DNA of 64,000 nucleotides. Origin: Marivirga aurantiaca. Lineage in GTDB: Bacteria; Bacteroidota; Bacteroidia; Cytophagales; Cyclobacteriaceae. Location: assembly GCF_016679925.1 (NCBI RefSeq), contig NZ_JAEQBW010000006.1, positions 1-64,000 on the forward strand. The letters are read 5' to 3'. The translations under genes were made by a program, and so were the position numbers. The notes under the pieces were generated by a model that had not been told where the DNA came from, did no database searches, and saw nothing but the letters and a program-made list of their open reading frames with translations. The stretch's first letter is position 1, and each line of letters begins with the position of its first letter. Below are positions 25,670 to 33,067 of this stretch, in pieces.

Positions 25670-26119
25670 ATGAATATCGTCATGAAAAAGTTTTTACTCA
25701 CATTCTCAATCTTAATATTTGGCTTAAGTCCTTTGCATTTATGGGGACAAGCTAGTGCTGAGGGTGTAAAGTATAGAGTAGTGGCAGTAAGCCATACCGG
25801 TGATCGCACAGTAAGTGTCTCCAATGATGTGGAACTTTTTAATTCTTTTTCTATAGAGGTGCCAACTGCATTCACTCCAAATAATGATGGATTAAATGAT
25901 AAATTTGGAGCTGTAGCAAAAGGTGTTAAAGAGTATAAATTAGTAATTTACAACAGATATGGCGAAGTTGTATTCAATACCAATTCTTTGGATCACAAGT
26001 GGGATGGAACATATAATGGCAAACAGGTTTCTACAGGTGGTTATATGTATGAGGTGATCGCTAAAAGCCACGAAGGGGAAGATCTTCATAAATCAGGAAA
26101 AGTAGTGGTTATTATCTAA
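25670..26119 (+). CDS. Small secreted protein: half FN3-like module plus T9SS type-B (CHU_C) sorting domain
   Basis: 149 residues: signal peptide ending LHLWGQ (about 27), a short stretch GVKYRVVAVSHTGDRTVSVS (about 32-51) that looks like the last strands of an FN3-like module, then a full gliding-motility-associated C-terminal domain (VPTAFTPNNDGLNDKF at about 64-79, KLVIYNRYGEVVF, HKWDGTYNGKQVSTGGYMY). CHU_C domains normally close very large T9SS cargo; here one stands almost alone. The 1754-residue PKD protein 10 bases downstream lacks such an end and stops inside an FN3-like module, so the two probably belong together. A second ATG (25682) could be the start. Confidence 0.85.
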   Translation: MNIVMKKFLLTFSILIFGLSPLHLWGQASAEGVKYRVVAVSHTGDRTVSVSNDVELFNSFSIEVPTAFTPNNDGLNDKFGAVAKGVKEYKLVIYNRYGEVVFNTNSLDHKWDGTYNGKQVSTGGYMYEVIAKSHEGEDLHKSGKVVVII

Positions 26120-26129
26120 ATCTCAAGAA

Positions 26130-29100
26130 ATGTTCTATAAACTAAAAATTTCTTTTCTTTTTACATTGGCATTTCTGTTGGTCTTGCAAAACAAAAATTT
26201 TGCACAAATCAATACTTCTACAGAGGAGGGTTGTGTGCCATTGCAGATTAACTTCTCATCTTCTCTTGAAAATGTAAAAAACTATCAATGGAATTTTGGC
26301 AATGGTCAAAGTGCTACTGTAGCCAACCCTTCTATCCTTTTTGAAGATGCGGGTACTTATGATGTAGAACTGATAGTTACTTTCAACAACGATCAACAGC
26401 AAACTTATACCGAAAGTGATTTAATAGAAGTATTTGGCAATCCTCAAGCTTCCTTTAGTGTGGATCAAACTATTGTTTGTAAAGATGCTCCACTTCAATT
26501 TCAAAACAATTCCTCTGGAGCAGAAAGTTATCTATGGAGCTTTGGTGATGGAAACCAGTCTAATGAAACCAACCCTATATATACTTATAACAGTAGTGGA
26601 AAATTTACTGTCACTTTAAGAGCTATAGGCAAAGGCGGATGTCCTGACGTAATGGTTAAAGAAGATATAATAGAAGTTTTAACCCCTGAAACTATACAGG
26701 TCTCTGCTAATAATACTGTCCAATGTATGGATGGAGATGCTATTCAATTTCAATTGTCTGAAAATGCAGTTAGTGCAGTTTGGGATTTTGGTGATGGCTA
26801 TACCAGTACAGATTTACAGGCAGCCCATCAATTTTCCACGGTGGGTAATTATGCGGTTTCTGTAACTGTAAAAGACGGGAATGATTGTTTCCAAACGCTT
26901 GTGTTACAAGATTCCATTCAAGTTGTTGCTACTGATCTGCCGGAAATACAGATGTCTGATAATGCTATCTGCACAGGCCAGCAAATTACTTTGGAGGCAT
27001 TGGTAGACACTGGAAGCGAAAGCGATTTCGAGTGGACTTTAAGCGATGGTCGTAAGTTCCAGGGAAAAACTGTGGAAATAGCTTTCGATCAATCAGGTAC
27101 TTATAATGCAGAACTAAATTTTACCAATGAAAATGGGTGTCAGCTTACCATAGAAGCACCTTCTTCCGTGACGGTACAATCTGTTAGCGCACCTACATTC
27201 AGTTATTCCGCAGCCTCAGGTTGCATGCCTTTTGATTTTGAAATTTCCAACACTACCTCAGGAGCTTCGGCTTACGAGTGGAAAATAAATAATGAAACCT
27301 TTTCAGGTAACACTATAAACTACACATTTTCTGAAGCAGGAAATTATCAGGTGAAAGCCATAACACATTATTCAAATGGATGTGTAATTGAAACTATTCT
27401 GGAAGAGGAAGTTCAGGTATTTGAAGTGGAAACTCCTATAGAAGTTTCAAAAAATGAAGGATGTGTACCTTTACAAACTAGTTTTGTGCTTCAAAATAGT
27501 GAAGCAACTAGTATTAAATGGGAATCAGGAGATGGAACTACTGCCGAAGGAAAATCGGTTGCCTTTGAGTATTCTGAACCAGGTGTTTACCAGCCTACCG
27601 TAACTTATGTAAATGGTAAAGGGTGTACTATTGAATATCAATTTGAAAAACCAATCACTGTTTTCGACTCCGTGATATATTTGAATGATCCCGAAGTGAT
27701 TGAATCATGTACTTACACCGAAGTGGATTTTAACGGTAGTATGGGACATGATTTTTGGGAGTGGGATTTTGGAGATGGCAGTATTTCAACAGATCGAAAT
27801 CCAGTCCATAGTTATGCCAATGCGGGCAGATATGTTATATCATTAACTACCAACAATAAAAATGGCTGTCGTACCACAATAGAAAATTATAATATCATTG
27901 AAATCCCGGATATTAATCCTAATGCTATCTATGAAGTATTTCCGGAAGAAACATGTGGCTTGTTTAGGGTGGAGTTGAATACTGAACTGGCAGAAGGAGA
28001 AACAGCTTTTTGGTTTTACAATGAAGCAATAGTGAGCACAGTTGACAATTTAAGCTTGACGTTTGCCACACTTGAAGACATCAATATTACATTAAGGGTT
28101 ACTGGGTCTGGGGAATGTTCCAAATCCAAAGCCATTGTTATTAAAAACCCATGGCAAGATTGCGAAAATCCTGAGTTGGAAGATGATGATGAGGAGGATG
28201 AAAGTAGCGGATTGACCAAACATGAATTCAAAAGTTGTACTACACCTTTTTGGGTAGATTTTATGAACCCAACGCCAGGGGCTGAGTCAATAGAATGGAC
28301 ATTCTCTGATGAGTCTAAAAGGACAGATAGTCATTTCACTGTAAAATATGATCAACCGGGCACGTACACAGTGGATTTTTATGCTTATTTCTCACCGGAT
28401 AGCTCATTCCTGGTGAAAGATTATATGACTATCACTATAGAAGATCCACTGGTGGATTTTACTTATGACGTAAAGGTGGTTTGTGATTCCTTTGAAGTGT
28501 CTTTTACACCTACTAATCCGGATTTTCAGTATTATAACTGGAAAATAAACAATAGACAGGTTACGTTGGATGGGGATAAATATCTTTTTCCTGAGCCGGG
28601 ATTGTACCAGGTGAGTCTTTCAGCTTCAGGGCAGAATACATGTGAAGCTACAAGCATTAAAAACATTTTTATTGGAAATCAGGAACAAACTTTTCAATTC
28701 CCAACCGAACTATGTATAGGTGAACCTTTTACTGTGAATCATGATCTACAAGGCTTTCAATCGTTTAGCTGGGATTTGGGCAATGGCGATACTATTACAA
28801 ATTCACAACTTGAATATACCTATAAATTGTCCGGAGAATATCAGGTAAAGTTATTCGCGACTGATTACCAAAACTGTGAGCACACTTTTGTGTTGCCTAA
28901 CAAAGTAAGAGTACAAAATCCAATAGCTTCATTTAAGGCAAGTAATAAAACAACTGGGTGTGGAACTCATACCGTAAATTTTGTAAATGCGTCTGAAAAT
29001 GCGGAATCATGGTTATGGGATTTTGGCAATGGGCAAACAAGCACGGTCAAAAATCCAAAAATAACTTTTGAACCTGGTATCTATAGCATCACATTAACAG

Positions 29101-31394
29101 CTTCATTTGGCGGATGTAGCAATTCCTTAGTATTGGAAGATTACATTCAGGTTGATGAATTAACAAGTGAATTTAGTTATCAGCAAAACCAGGATTGTTT
29201 ACCTGTGGAAGTAAGTTTCACTGATGAAAGTATTAATGCTGTTTCATGGCTTTGGGAATTTGGTGATGGTGATTCATCTGTTCAACAGCATCCGGTACAT
29301 ATTTACACTACTATTCCGGAACATCCTATCAAATTAACTGTCACTAATGCTTCTGGCTGTTCAGTAGTTAAAGAACAAGAAATGGAAGGTATTTTCAACG
29401 CCAGGTTTGAGGCAGATCAAACCAAAGCCTGTGGTCCGGCATCCATTCAGTTTAGCGCCTTTAGTGAACAGTCAGTAAGTTGGGAATGGCAGTTTGGTGA
29501 TGGAAATACAAGCACAGAAGCAAGTCCGTTGCACATTTATGACCAACCAGGGATTTATTCAGTTCAATTGATCGCTTCTAATGAAAGCGGATGTGAAGAT
29601 ACAGTGCGTATTGAAAATTATATTGAAGTACTTGACCTTCAGGCAGGATTTTCCATTAAAGAACCCGTTGCTTCTGCTTGTGTTCCGGTGGAAGTTTCCT
29701 TCCAAAATGAAGCAGTTGGGGCAAGTGCTTATTTCTGGGACTTTGGTGATGGGAAAACCTCTACGGTGCCAAATCCATTACATGTTTATACCAGTGTGGG
29801 AGAATTTGATGTAAAGCTAATAGTAACCAATGATTTAGGGTGCACAGATACCTTGCATAGGTCGGAATTGGTGATCACGAAAGGCCCGGAAACAAAATTT
29901 TCTATAGCTAAAAAAACAATATGTATGCCTGATAGTGCTCAGTTTACTGACCTGTCTTCCAATGCGGTTGAATGGCAATGGTTCTTTGGTGATGGTACTA
30001 CCTCAAATGAGCCCAATCCAAACCACAGTTACACCAATGCAGGTGTGTATAAAGTGACATTAGTGGCAAAAAATGTAGACGGTTGTCAGCAAAGTTATAG
30101 TATTGGAAATATTAAGGTATTGCCTACTCCACAACCGGCATTTGACCTTGTCGTTTCGGGAGAATGTTATCCTGTGGAAATTGATGTTACCAACAATAGT
30201 TCCAATCTTCAAAACCCTACTTATGTTTGGGATTTTGGAAATGGTGTGAAAAGTAATGAGCCGGCACCAACCTATATTTATGAAAAACCAGGTACATACC
30301 AGGTAAGTCTATCAGTGAAAAATGACGGAGGATGTCCTGTTACCATGATTAGCGATATGACTATTCTCGTTCGTGATACTGTGAGCCATAAAGAGGCGCA
30401 GGTTCAAAATGTTTGGGTAGAAGATAATTTGGCACGTTTTGAATTGGAACCCTATGCCTACAATAATATATCACATTATAATGTAATGCGAAAAACAATG
30501 AGTGGTTTTATACTGTTGGATCAAATATCACCGGAAGAAGTAACTTTTTACGAAGATAAAACCTGTCAGCCACAGAACATGACCCATGAGTATGTTTTTC
30601 AGGCAGTTTCCTATTGTGAAGATACGCTTAGTTTGGATCAAATCAGGCATTATAACACTTTACACCTCACCAAAAAAGAGGAATCAAGGAGGCGGACAAT
30701 TGAATGGAATACCCATAAAGGAATGCCTGCTAATAATTACAGGGTGTTTAGAAAAAATATTACAGCCAGTGATTGGGATGAAATTGCTATCTCAGATATG
30801 AATATGTTGGACTATCATGACAGTACTTATTTATGTCCGGGCAATTATCAGTATCGTGTGGCTTCATTTTTTGAGAACAAGTTATTATCGACTAGTAATC
30901 CTGTGTTATTTGAAGTGAGTGATGAGGTGTTTAAAAACCAAACCGCAGTTATAAAAACCACCACTGTATTGGATACAGGTGAAATATTTACAGAATGGAC
31001 AGTGCCAGAAGAAGGGAAGAATAAAATTATACAATACGAAGTGTTTCGATCTGTCAATCAAGGACCATTTGAATTTTATTCGGAGGTAAGTCCGCAAGAT
31101 CAATTTTATATAGATGAAAATGTGGATAGCAAAAATAATGAATATAGCTATCAGGTAAAAGTAGTGAATGAATGCTCAATTGATGCCCCGGCAAGTGGGC
31201 AATCCAATAGTGTACTATTGAAAAAGCAGAACCAATTCAGGAAATATGAATTGAATTGGAATCCTTATACTGGCTGGAAGGATGGGGTGTTGAAGTATAT
31301 TATTCAGCGACAAAATGAAAATGGTGAGTGGGAAGATGTGATGGAAGTAGAAGGAAGCCAAAATAAAACGATCATCGAAAAGCAGGAAGAATAG
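26130..31394 (+). CDS. Giant secreted PKD-repeat protein without its own sorting domain
   Basis: 1754 residues. After a signal peptide (to about 26, ending NFAQ), about 17 PKD-type modules fill residues 27-1415. They show the core motif W-x-F-G-D/N-G (for example YLWSFGDGN, WEWDFGDGS, WLWDFGNGQ, WQWFFGDGT), some degenerate (YEWKINNE, FWFYNE), and many begin with a conserved Cys (GCVPLQ). An acidic linker (ELEDDDEEDESS) falls near 690. From about 1417, four FN3-like modules follow; the last (from about 1700) ends abruptly after IIQRQNENGEWEDVMEVEG and a charged tail. The usual CHU_C domain is absent. Such proteins serve in adhesion or gliding on the cell surface. A terminator follows the TAG at once. 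Confidence 0.9.
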   Translation: MFYKLKISFLFTLAFLLVLQNKNFAQINTSTEEGCVPLQINFSSSLENVKNYQWNFGNGQSATVANPSILFEDAGTYDVELIVTFNNDQQQTYTESDLIEVFGNPQASFSVDQTIVCKDAPLQFQNNSSGAESYLWSFGDGNQSNETNPIYTYNSSGKFTVTLRAIGKGGCPDVMVKEDIIEVLTPETIQVSANNTVQCMDGDAIQFQLSENAVSAVWDFGDGYTSTDLQAAHQFSTVGNYAVSVTVKDGNDCFQTLVLQDSIQVVATDLPEIQMSDNAICTGQQITLEALVDTGSESDFEWTLSDGRKFQGKTVEIAFDQSGTYNAELNFTNENGCQLTIEAPSSVTVQSVSAPTFSYSAASGCMPFDFEISNTTSGASAYEWKINNETFSGNTINYTFSEAGNYQVKAITHYSNGCVIETILEEEVQVFEVETPIEVSKNEGCVPLQTSFVLQNSEATSIKWESGDGTTAEGKSVAFEYSEPGVYQPTVTYVNGKGCTIEYQFEKPITVFDSVIYLNDPEVIESCTYTEVDFNGSMGHDFWEWDFGDGSISTDRNPVHSYANAGRYVISLTTNNKNGCRTTIENYNIIEIPDINPNAIYEVFPEETCGLFRVELNTELAEGETAFWFYNEAIVSTVDNLSLTFATLEDINITLRVTGSGECSKSKAIVIKNPWQDCENPELEDDDEEDESSGLTKHEFKSCTTPFWVDFMNPTPGAESIEWTFSDESKRTDSHFTVKYDQPGTYTVDFYAYFSPDSSFLVKDYMTITIEDPLVDFTYDVKVVCDSFEVSFTPTNPDFQYYNWKINNRQVTLDGDKYLFPEPGLYQVSLSASGQNTCEATSIKNIFIGNQEQTFQFPTELCIGEPFTVNHDLQGFQSFSWDLGNGDTITNSQLEYTYKLSGEYQVKLFATDYQNCEHTFVLPNKVRVQNPIASFKASNKTTGCGTHTVNFVNASENAESWLWDFGNGQTSTVKNPKITFEPGIYSITLTASFGGCSNSLVLEDYIQVDELTSEFSYQQNQDCLPVEVSFTDESINAVSWLWEFGDGDSSVQQHPVHIYTTIPEHPIKLTVTNASGCSVVKEQEMEGIFNARFEADQTKACGPASIQFSAFSEQSVSWEWQFGDGNTSTEASPLHIYDQPGIYSVQLIASNESGCEDTVRIENYIEVLDLQAGFSIKEPVASACVPVEVSFQNEAVGASAYFWDFGDGKTSTVPNPLHVYTSVGEFDVKLIVTNDLGCTDTLHRSELVITKGPETKFSIAKKTICMPDSAQFTDLSSNAVEWQWFFGDGTTSNEPNPNHSYTNAGVYKVTLVAKNVDGCQQSYSIGNIKVLPTPQPAFDLVVSGECYPVEIDVTNNSSNLQNPTYVWDFGNGVKSNEPAPTYIYEKPGTYQVSLSVKNDGGCPVTMISDMTILVRDTVSHKEAQVQNVWVEDNLARFELEPYAYNNISHYNVMRKTMSGFILLDQISPEEVTFYEDKTCQPQNMTHEYVFQAVSYCEDTLSLDQIRHYNTLHLTKKEESRRRTIEWNTHKGMPANNYRVFRKNITASDWDEIAISDMNMLDYHDSTYLCPGNYQYRVASFFENKLLSTSNPVLFEVSDEVFKNQTAVIKTTTVLDTGEIFTEWTVPEEGKNKIIQYEVFRSVNQGPFEFYSEVSPQDQFYIDENVDSKNNEYSYQVKVVNECSIDAPASGQSNSVLLKKQNQFRKYELNWNPYTGWKDGVLKYIIQRQNENGEWEDVMEVEGSQNKTIIEKQEE

Positions 31395-31425
31395 TGAGGA
31401 GAGAGAAACAAAAGCTCTCGCCTCA
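31395..31425 (+). terminator. Terminator of the split sorting-domain / PKD operon
   Basis: TGAGGAGAGAG (31395-31405) pairs with CTCTCGCCTCA (31415-31425), one mismatch, then TTATTCATTCTT. It begins one base past the stop codon. Confidence 0.75.
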
Positions 31426-31996
31426 TTATTCATTCTTAGTCTCTGTTTTTAACCAACACTAAACCTATATTCTTTTCAATTTTTGAAAATTGGGATTGTT
31501 TAATAAACATTAATTAGACCTGTGGCCATATAATTAATGATATTCAAGCCAAGGAATTAACACTAGTAAGCTTAACAAGCATGCACTTTTCCTTCACAAA
31601 TTTTAGTACAAATAGGATTATCAATATGATGGTTTTTTTCATCCTGCCCTATATTAATGAGGATGAAAAATGTAGTCCAACATGTAATGTGTTCTGATGC
31701 GATTTTTATGGGTTGAAGGCTCACTATAAATTTTCTTTTTATTTTCTGTTATTGGATAATCGCATAAGAGGTTGATATTCAGCTTGCCATGCCAGTTAAA
31801 ATAATATAGAGATTTATTAATGGAGTATTATTTTTTTTGTTACAACCTAGCGCAACAATGTAGTGTCTTTAGTGTTGTAGAATGGAATTAAATTGGCAAA
31901 ATTACTCGTTATGCATAATAAATTATGGCACAATGTTTTAACAAAGCGGTTTAATTTCTTATTTTCACATTTAATCTAAACAATAATTAAACTATT
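31426..31996. other. Long intergenic region upstream of the fasciclin gene
   Basis: About 570 AT-rich bases with no supported gene on either strand, no clear palindrome and no protein-like fragment. It probably holds the promoter of the fasciclin lipoprotein gene near its right end, but I could not point to a full TANNTTTG box. Confidence 0.4.
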
Positions 31997-33067
31997 ATGA
32001 AAAAGAAAAATTTATTTTTAAAGCTAAGCTCTACTCTAATGGCGGTAGTATTTTTGGCTATGTCGTCAATGGTTCTTACATCATGCGGTGATGATGAGGG
32101 AACAGATCCGGATCCGGAACCAGAGAATTCAGTATTAGAGATTGTAGCTGAAAGTGAAACACATACTCAATTGGAATTCTTTTTGGAGGAATATCCTGAT
32201 TTAATTTCAGTACTTGAAGGTGATGGACCAATAACTTTGTTTGCTCCTAATGATGCAGCTTTTGCTAAATTACAAACTATACTAGGTGTTGAATCTTTGG
32301 AAACTGTTAATCCTGACATTATAAAAGCGGTATTAGCATTTCACATCCATGCAGCTGCTGAAGTAAGAAGAACTGAGATGGAGCAATCGACTTCATTAAC
32401 TACTGCACAGGGAGAAAATATTACTTTTAATGCAAATGGAAATATTGCTACAGGTGGATCGGATACAGATGTGGAATTTGTAGGAGAGGAAATATTAGCT
32501 ACCAATGGTGTAGTTCATGTAGTAGAAACGATTTTAGTTCCGCCAGTACAAGTATTTAGTATGATTGCTGTGCATTTAGGTAAAGTATCTCAAGCCGTAT
32601 TATTAGGTGCAGATTTCAGTACTTTAGCGGCTGCAATTCAAAAAGCAGATGAATTTGCTGCTTCAGCAAGTCAGCCTTTATTATCTGATATCTTATCGAG
32701 CGAATCCGAAACTTTAACAGTTTTTGCACCAGTAAATGCAGTTTTCGTTAGTGCAGGAATTACTTTAGATGCTTATAGTGGTCAGGAATGGTATGGTTTA
32801 ATTGCCAATCATATATTATCTGTAGAAGTTAAAGGTGCTGATTTTGTTGCTGGTGCTTCTTATACAACTAAAGCGCAGAAAACCATAACAGTATTGACTA
32901 CAGAAGCTCCAATTGATGCGGACGCAGGAATTACTTCAGGTGTGGTTTTAGATTCTAATGGTGATAGTGCACCTAACGGACAAATTGCTTTGGAAAATGC
33001 ATATGATAGCCAGATAAATGGTGTAGTTCATGCTTTTGCAGGCGTTTTAACACCACCGACTGAGTAA
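31997..33067 (+). CDS. Lipoprotein with two fasciclin (FAS1) domains
   Basis: 356 residues: signal and lipobox (VLTSCGDDEGTDPDPEPEN, Cys30) followed by a run of acidic residues, as in surface-exposed Bacteroidetes lipoproteins. Two FAS1 domains follow. The first (about 48-180) has ITLFAPNDAAFAKL and the closing block NGVVHVVETILVPP. The second (about 190-352) has LTVFAPVNAVFVSAG and INGVVHAFAGVLTPP. FAS1 domains mediate cell adhesion or matrix binding. It is monocistronic, with a strong terminator. Confidence 0.93.
   Translation: MKKKNLFLKLSSTLMAVVFLAMSSMVLTSCGDDEGTDPDPEPENSVLEIVAESETHTQLEFFLEEYPDLISVLEGDGPITLFAPNDAAFAKLQTILGVESLETVNPDIIKAVLAFHIHAAAEVRRTEMEQSTSLTTAQGENITFNANGNIATGGSDTDVEFVGEEILATNGVVHVVETILVPPVQVFSMIAVHLGKVSQAVLLGADFSTLAAAIQKADEFAASASQPLLSDILSSESETLTVFAPVNAVFVSAGITLDAYSGQEWYGLIANHILSVEVKGADFVAGASYTTKAQKTITVLTTEAPIDADAGITSGVVLDSNGDSAPNGQIALENAYDSQINGVVHAFAGVLTPPTE

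Follow-up and report, generated by a model that had tools for sequence, protein, structure and literature searches.

Two adjacent genes of Marivirga aurantiaca, carried on the 64,000-nucleotide stretch of contig NZ_JAEQBW010000006.1 analyzed here (the window), probably encode one type B cargo of the type IX secretion system (T9SS) that is built from two chains. The small chain holds the CHU_C sorting domain, the large chain is a PKD-repeat protein that stops inside an FN3 module, and the small chain would both complete this module and supply the sorting signal in trans. The initial annotation of the window had proposed a split FN3 end of this kind, and our comparisons of homologous sequences support that reading; the physical complex and the joint export of the two chains are what we infer from it. 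Genomes, contigs, loci, families and genera are cited below by our own handles (G, C, L, f and g, respectively).

The sorting domain and its passenger lie on separate chains

The small protein matches CHU_C (PF13585) with 65.3 bits against a cut-off of 27 (E = 5.5e-18), and TIGR04131 matches it in agreement. The large protein, whose open reading frame (ORF) lies 10 nt behind the small one, gave PKD matches and no CHU_C in Pfam and TIGR04131 scans; the coordinates, spacing and domain content first reported for the two genes were confirmed. Its last 337 residues matched no Pfam family at E 0.01, and the same scans recognized no export signal in it beyond the signal peptide. We read the six frames of 31151-32000 by eye and saw no CHU_C remnant, and a hidden Markov model (HMM) search of the frames downstream of the large gene found no CHU_C. 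A type B cargo is recognized by a C-terminal CHU_C/TIGR04131 domain; the small protein has one and the large protein alone has none, so only the pair can be filed as a T9SS type B cargo. The N-termini of both chains are typically hydrophobic by eye; judging from the N-termini in relatives, the small protein may be translated from the next ATG, 25682, and not from 25670.

The cut falls between strands E and F of one FN3 module

We aligned both chains with 17 fused homologues (MAFFT): the large protein runs to column 192, the small protein sets in at column 194, and the two do not overlap. For the 199-aa tail of L104, a natural fused homologue, AlphaFold2 (AF2) predicted a structure (predicted local distance difference test [pLDDT] score 89.5) with strands at 18-23, 26-31, 41-49, 60-63, 68-72, 79-88 and 95-97/101-104, followed by CHU_C; we read these seven strands as A, B, C, C', E, F and G of an FN3 fold, and the cut maps to the E-F loop of this one module. 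The C-terminal 170 residues of the large protein from the window, modeled in the same way (pLDDT 84.8), form one module followed by five strands (113-118, 121-126, 138-144, 150-157 and 162-166), with F and G absent; as modeled, this C-terminus is not an intact FN3 fold. Foldseek returned tandem FN3 structures as the best matches of both models. Because the alignment abuts without overlap and the cut lies between strands E and F in the fused model, the break is placed inside one FN3-like module, as had been suspected.

In the donor strand complementation of chaperone-usher pili, an incomplete Ig-like fold is completed by the strand of another chain. Both sides of such an arrangement could be recognized in our pair: the modeled last module of the large protein has strands A, B, C, C' and E only, and the missing strands are held by the small protein, whose F-G stretch aligns with F-G of the fused homologues and keeps the residues R, A, S, S and N invariant in 14 diverse small proteins. 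Compared with the pili, the donor here would give a two-strand hairpin and also carry the export signal, and its complementation is predicted only.

In the mechanism that we propose, both chains would enter the periplasm by their own signal peptides, as read from the sequence, and the small protein would use its N-terminal F-G hairpin to complete the five-stranded half FN3 in which the large protein ends. The completed module would place CHU_C as in the fused homologues, the complex would be recognized through CHU_C and exported jointly, and a PorP/SprF carrier, whose gene is linked in relatives, would hold it at the surface. With the sorting domain on its own chain, one small protein could serve several passengers, and the genes need not adjoin.

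The two genes occur together in the family and across the class

We searched 295 genomes of the family for both genes. With the small protein as query, we obtained 15 short ORFs in full contigs (147-171 aa), after which the matches listed dropped sharply to long fused proteins, while a profile of the large C-terminus gave 15 matches at or below 1.7e-128, the next being 2.6e-32. Both searches point to the identical 15 genomes, namely eight of the 10 from the window's genus, six from genus g58 and one from g104; G005 and G009, the others of the window's genus, showed neither the small nor the large gene. The small gene stands first in all 15 pairs, 0-26 nt from the large gene, and the large proteins (1750-1768 aa) share the same end point. 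The initial annotation had advised looking elsewhere for such tail-first pairs and for fused homologues: the pair is present in at least 15 of these 295 genomes, and fused homologues were found as well. Among the matches listed for 390 genomes of the order, the short ORF is confined to this family. The sole short match outside the family (G397) proved to be a contig-end fragment; a 202-aa ORF of G148, listed in the search of the 295 family genomes, is likewise cut at a contig end. An additional pair lies in an uncultured Fulvivirga record (L096).

A fused FN3-CHU_C protein of about 640 aa was also observed in the order, between hisS- or hutH-like and YbaB-like genes (neighbor names assigned by eye) at L075, L076, L077, L081 and L082 and in a similar setting at L078 and L080. 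This protein is a core type B cargo of several genomes of the order.

Two Bacteroidia loci (L098, L099) carry a short ORF of the same build without a PKD neighbor, and a search of 395 class genomes with that small protein returned such ORFs in at least 12 further family codes. The small gene is followed directly by that of a large PKD protein in f41, f44, f24 and f35, and the intact copies end at the same FN3 point (seven loci). These class-wide matches ruled out that the pair is an oddity of one genus.

A profile of diverse large-protein C-termini (A3), run on the same 395 genomes, gave at least 174 matches at 1e-25; it was built from truncated proteins only, so higher scores of truncated proteins are expected. 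We classified 110 of the first 111 matches listed (down to E 1.3e-45; weaker matches may hold more truncated ends) and left out G818:C1:2136209-2137192, whose 7274-aa frame runs into a CHU_C match by coordinates. An end was called truncated at 0-11 residues past the profile match and extended at 125 or more (script limits 15 and 100), and the start of CHU_C in the extended group was read by eye from the extensions, except for G946:C154 (372-aa extension). The result was 47 truncated ends (0-11 residues past strand E), 63 extended ends (at least 125) and no intermediate.

The truncated ends sit in 40 genomes, and a stand-alone small ORF is listed in every one of them (36 parsed in sequence, the window's among them; G763, G819, G749 and G846 known from match rows alone). 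Extended ends occur in 37 genomes, 34 of which have no truncated end among the classified matches. Four short ORFs in these 34 (G784, G885 twice, G986) were candidates for stand-alone small genes and turned out to be contig-end fragments; together with those of G917, G696 (two), G686, G982 and G397, 10 of 10 short CHU_C frames checked are open to the contig end, a second G982 match (C71) standing outside this set. G701, which lies outside the classified matches, carries a small gene together with a large gene whose frame contains stops.

The genes need not be linked

Among the 40 genomes, the two genes are adjacent or nearly so on the same contig in 19 (G763, G819 and G749 by coordinates only; G622, G673 and G709 with the large gene in pieces), and in G622 a 155-aa gene stands between them. 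Five further genomes are cut: in G619, G639, G733, G792 and G870, the start of a PKD ORF directly follows the small gene, and then the contig ends. G846 is unassigned, and the remaining 15 genomes, of f43, f81, f78 and f76, hold the small and large genes on separate contigs. As far as the flanks of the large gene are visible in these 15, they contain no small gene (the upstream side is out of view in L302 and L303 and partly so in L291). Large proteins that share the end point and have no small partner nearby, which the initial annotation had named as evidence against it, do exist in these four families; as a small gene is listed on another contig in all 15 genomes, the observation fits delivery in trans.

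The numbers of passengers and small proteins may also differ. Two truncated large proteins were found in each of seven genomes (G665, G893, G638, G716, G832, G681 and G995), and in a profile search of 27 chosen genomes the matches listed show a single stand-alone small gene for each of these seven.

G945 carries the only pair seen in the order large, small, followed by a PorP/SprF-like gene (L261:1-3001), each with its own N-terminus. Because of this pair and the 15 genomes with separate contigs, gene order tells little of origin: the tail-first arrangement, which holds in all 15 family pairs and for which tandem duplication with reciprocal deletions had first been considered as the source, is not universal.

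The half module is under selection

A tree of 129 C-termini puts the 61 truncated members on one side of a branch with a Shimodaira-Hasegawa-like approximate likelihood ratio (SH-aLRT) support of 95, and the state changes once; the tree is a quick one, with some long branches and an arbitrary root. The truncated form likely arose once, judging from this tree. Five within-genus comparisons gave ratios of nonsynonymous to synonymous substitution rates (dN/dS) of 0.086-0.155 over the entire large protein, 0.011-0.065 over its final 60 residues and 0.047-0.176 over the small protein in its mature form; some of them approach saturation of dS, hence the ratios are rough, although their direction is clear. 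By these ratios, the half module is under strong purifying selection.

A stop mutation, frameshift or read-through was tried as the explanation and rejected, because the small-protein HMM finds CHU_C downstream of only one of the 47 truncated ends, and this lone CHU_C (G945) belongs to a separate gene with its own signal peptide. The common end point of the 15 family pairs and the low dN/dS likewise ruled out a recent pseudogene. The same cut in homologues, fused forms elsewhere, the listed co-occurrence, the genes on separate contigs and purifying selection support one protein end that has been split and maintained in that state. The initial annotation had offered two versions of such a split: fold complementation that delivers the sorting domain in trans, or permutation of a gene with retention of both its parts.

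A candidate carrier of the complex

Type B signals require cognate PorP/SprF proteins, according to passages in PMC12618676 and PMC9143113. In L096 and the seven g58/g104 loci, the small gene is immediately preceded by a PorP/SprF-type gene, and PF11751 matches the linked carriers of L090 (E = 8e-51) and L096 (7e-50), the two tested; in G945, a gene with sequence resemblance to PorP/SprF immediately follows the small gene. The window's genome has 16 PorP/SprF genes above the cut-off, of which the copy nearest to a linked carrier is C30:412254-413198 (41% identity, 6e-79; next 7e-33), and contig C30 has no CHU_C match. The eight linked carriers and the C30 copy end in a C-tail with a KC or QC motif. 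A passage in PMC12635249 describes that SprF of Flavobacterium johnsoniae bonds to GldK of the gliding track via its C-tail cysteines; the carriers here (L346:1477-2451; L088-L094, L096) differ in having a single-cysteine tail motif instead of the Cys-Xaa-Cys of SprF, and a link of the split cargo to the gliding track is a lead only.

Weighing of the two-chain cargo against other explanations

Several points weigh against the two-chain cargo. The truncated ends share their ancestry, and the tree needs one split, so that their co-occurrence with small genes does not amount to 40 independent events. This co-occurrence rests on the matches listed, and the re-search with the small-protein profile covered 10 of the 34 extended-only genomes. 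The window pair has no adjoining PorP/SprF gene. AF2 models the half module alone with fair confidence (block means 86-88, last block 73), from which a requirement for the partner does not follow. Finally, a review (PMC10202324) cites an earlier study in which secretion by type B signals took more than 200 residues, which speaks against a mature chain of 120 residues acting alone; a later study (PMC12618676) describes the type B signal as both necessary and sufficient.

The small protein might instead be exported first as a surface dock, with the large protein arriving by another route and joining it there. The complete type B domain and apparent signal peptide of the small protein would allow this, as would the separation of the genes onto different contigs in 15 of the 40 genomes, but the large protein has no recognized export signal other than its signal peptide and the fused homologues hold both parts on one chain, and we consider such a dock unlikely. 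That the two proteins have separate functions and are merely kept together, the F-G hairpin being a spacer before CHU_C, seems very unlikely: small genes without a PKD neighbor exist in several families, yet the two chains are complementary, they co-occur even when unlinked, the half module is under purifying selection, and, among the matches listed, no confirmed stand-alone small gene was found where only extended forms occur.

Less probable again is that the chains, once translocated into the periplasm or at the surface, are joined covalently, for example by a transpeptidase, to yield the fused form as product. Such joining is compatible with all data, and the large proteins often end in acidic or amide residues; against it, general family scans, none aimed at these features, showed no intein or sortase site, and type B proteins are reported in a passage of PMC10202324 as probably not cleaved. 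The decaying remains of a broken gene, which a domain-internal break would usually suggest, are hardly credible given one end point common to the 47 listed ends and 14 further family proteins, dN/dS of 0.01-0.18 throughout, and a downstream CHU_C in G945 alone, on a distinct gene that has a signal peptide of its own.

Features of the pair and recurrent neighbors

The features of the two window genes are collected in Table 1 together with three kinds of neighbors that recur at related loci. A protein of 155-214 aa, with a hydrophobic N-terminus and an apparent whole FN3 module, stands next to the large gene in a number of families; L293 and L197, the two tested, had no Pfam match, and it is a possible third component. 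Proteins of about 480 aa that resemble one another recur beside the large or small gene in several families, and the one tested (L215) gave a weak TPR match only. Response-regulator and kinase-like genes, identified by eye, recur beside PorP/SprF-small-large loci and beside small genes without a PKD neighbor.

Table 1. Coordinates of the window pair and of recurrent neighbors at related loci
Feature	Position	Strand	Basis
Small gene, 149 aa: putative signal peptide, FN3 strands F and G, CHU_C	25670..26119	+	ORF; PF13585; TIGR04131; stand-alone homologues
Signal peptide of small protein, approximate end	25670..25753	+	Read from sequence; start may be ATG 25682
FN3 strands F and G, small-protein residues 33-57	25766..25840	+	Alignment with 17 fused homologues; fused-homologue model
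CHU_C type B sorting domain, small-protein residues 62-137	25853..26080	+	PF13585
Large gene, 1754 aa: signal peptide, PKD array, FN3-like modules, half FN3 end, no sorting domain	26130..31394	+	ORF; Pfam
Signal peptide of large protein, approximate	26130..26207	+	Read from sequence
PKD repeat array, approximate limits	26208..30380	+	Pfam PKD_4, 14 stretches
FN3-like modules preceding half module, approximate limits	30381..31211	+	Alignments; Foldseek on last 170 aa
Half FN3 module, strands A, B, C, C', E, last 60 residues	31212..31391	+	AF2 model; dN/dS
FN3-like neighbor, 155-214 aa	L293:2003-2587, L294:1547-2074, L297:2031-2672, L197:8565-9170, L199:8775-9335, L208:2525-2989		
Neighbor of about 480 aa	L215:8428-9876, L206 (reverse strand), L208:198-1643, L293:309-1763, L294:2-1294		
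Loci with response-regulator/kinase-like neighbors	L088-L090, L183, L184, L186-L188, L197, L203		

Relation to known systems and implications

Type B cargos with a cognate carrier are described in passages of PMC9143113 and PMC12618676, namely SprB-SprF of F. johnsoniae and PG1035-PorP of Porphyromonas gingivalis. Our pair resembles them in its CHU_C/TIGR04131 domain, putative signal peptide, large repeat-rich passenger and, in relatives, linked PorP/SprF gene. It differs in that passenger and sorting domain are two chains cut within an FN3 fold, that their genes can be on different contigs, and that seven genomes have two truncated passengers and one listed small gene. The fused PKD-FN3-CHU_C proteins of other Bacteroidia (e.g., f23) and the order-wide FN3-CHU_C protein of 620-690 aa (e.g., L104, L145) both share with our pair homologous FN3 modules, the same F-G strands behind them and CHU_C, but each is one chain. 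One protein encoded as two chains is also known from the split-gene transketolase of Carboxydothermus, described in PMC7661550. That protein is an enzyme, whereas here the cut lies inside one small domain and the second chain carries a secretion signal. To our knowledge, T9SS cargos have been described as having the sorting domain on the same chain. In the titles, abstract openings and passages covered, including PMC10994853, with few subscription papers and no preprints among them, we found no report of a type B cargo whose sorting domain resides on a chain of its own.

We put forward, tentatively and as a wider possibility about which we are almost evenly divided, that in much of Bacteroidia one small sorting protein completes the FN3 of one or several giant passengers and so licenses their type IX export; fold completion would then act as an assembly check, loading would be combinatorial and the tag exchangeable. 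If the two-chain cargo is true, a sorting signal works in trans, and a cargo can cross the outer membrane as a multi-chain complex; the natural split FN3 would offer a test of how the translocon handles folded complexes. Proteins without a detectable sorting domain could then be T9SS cargo, and a whole class of giant surface proteins would escape secretome prediction.

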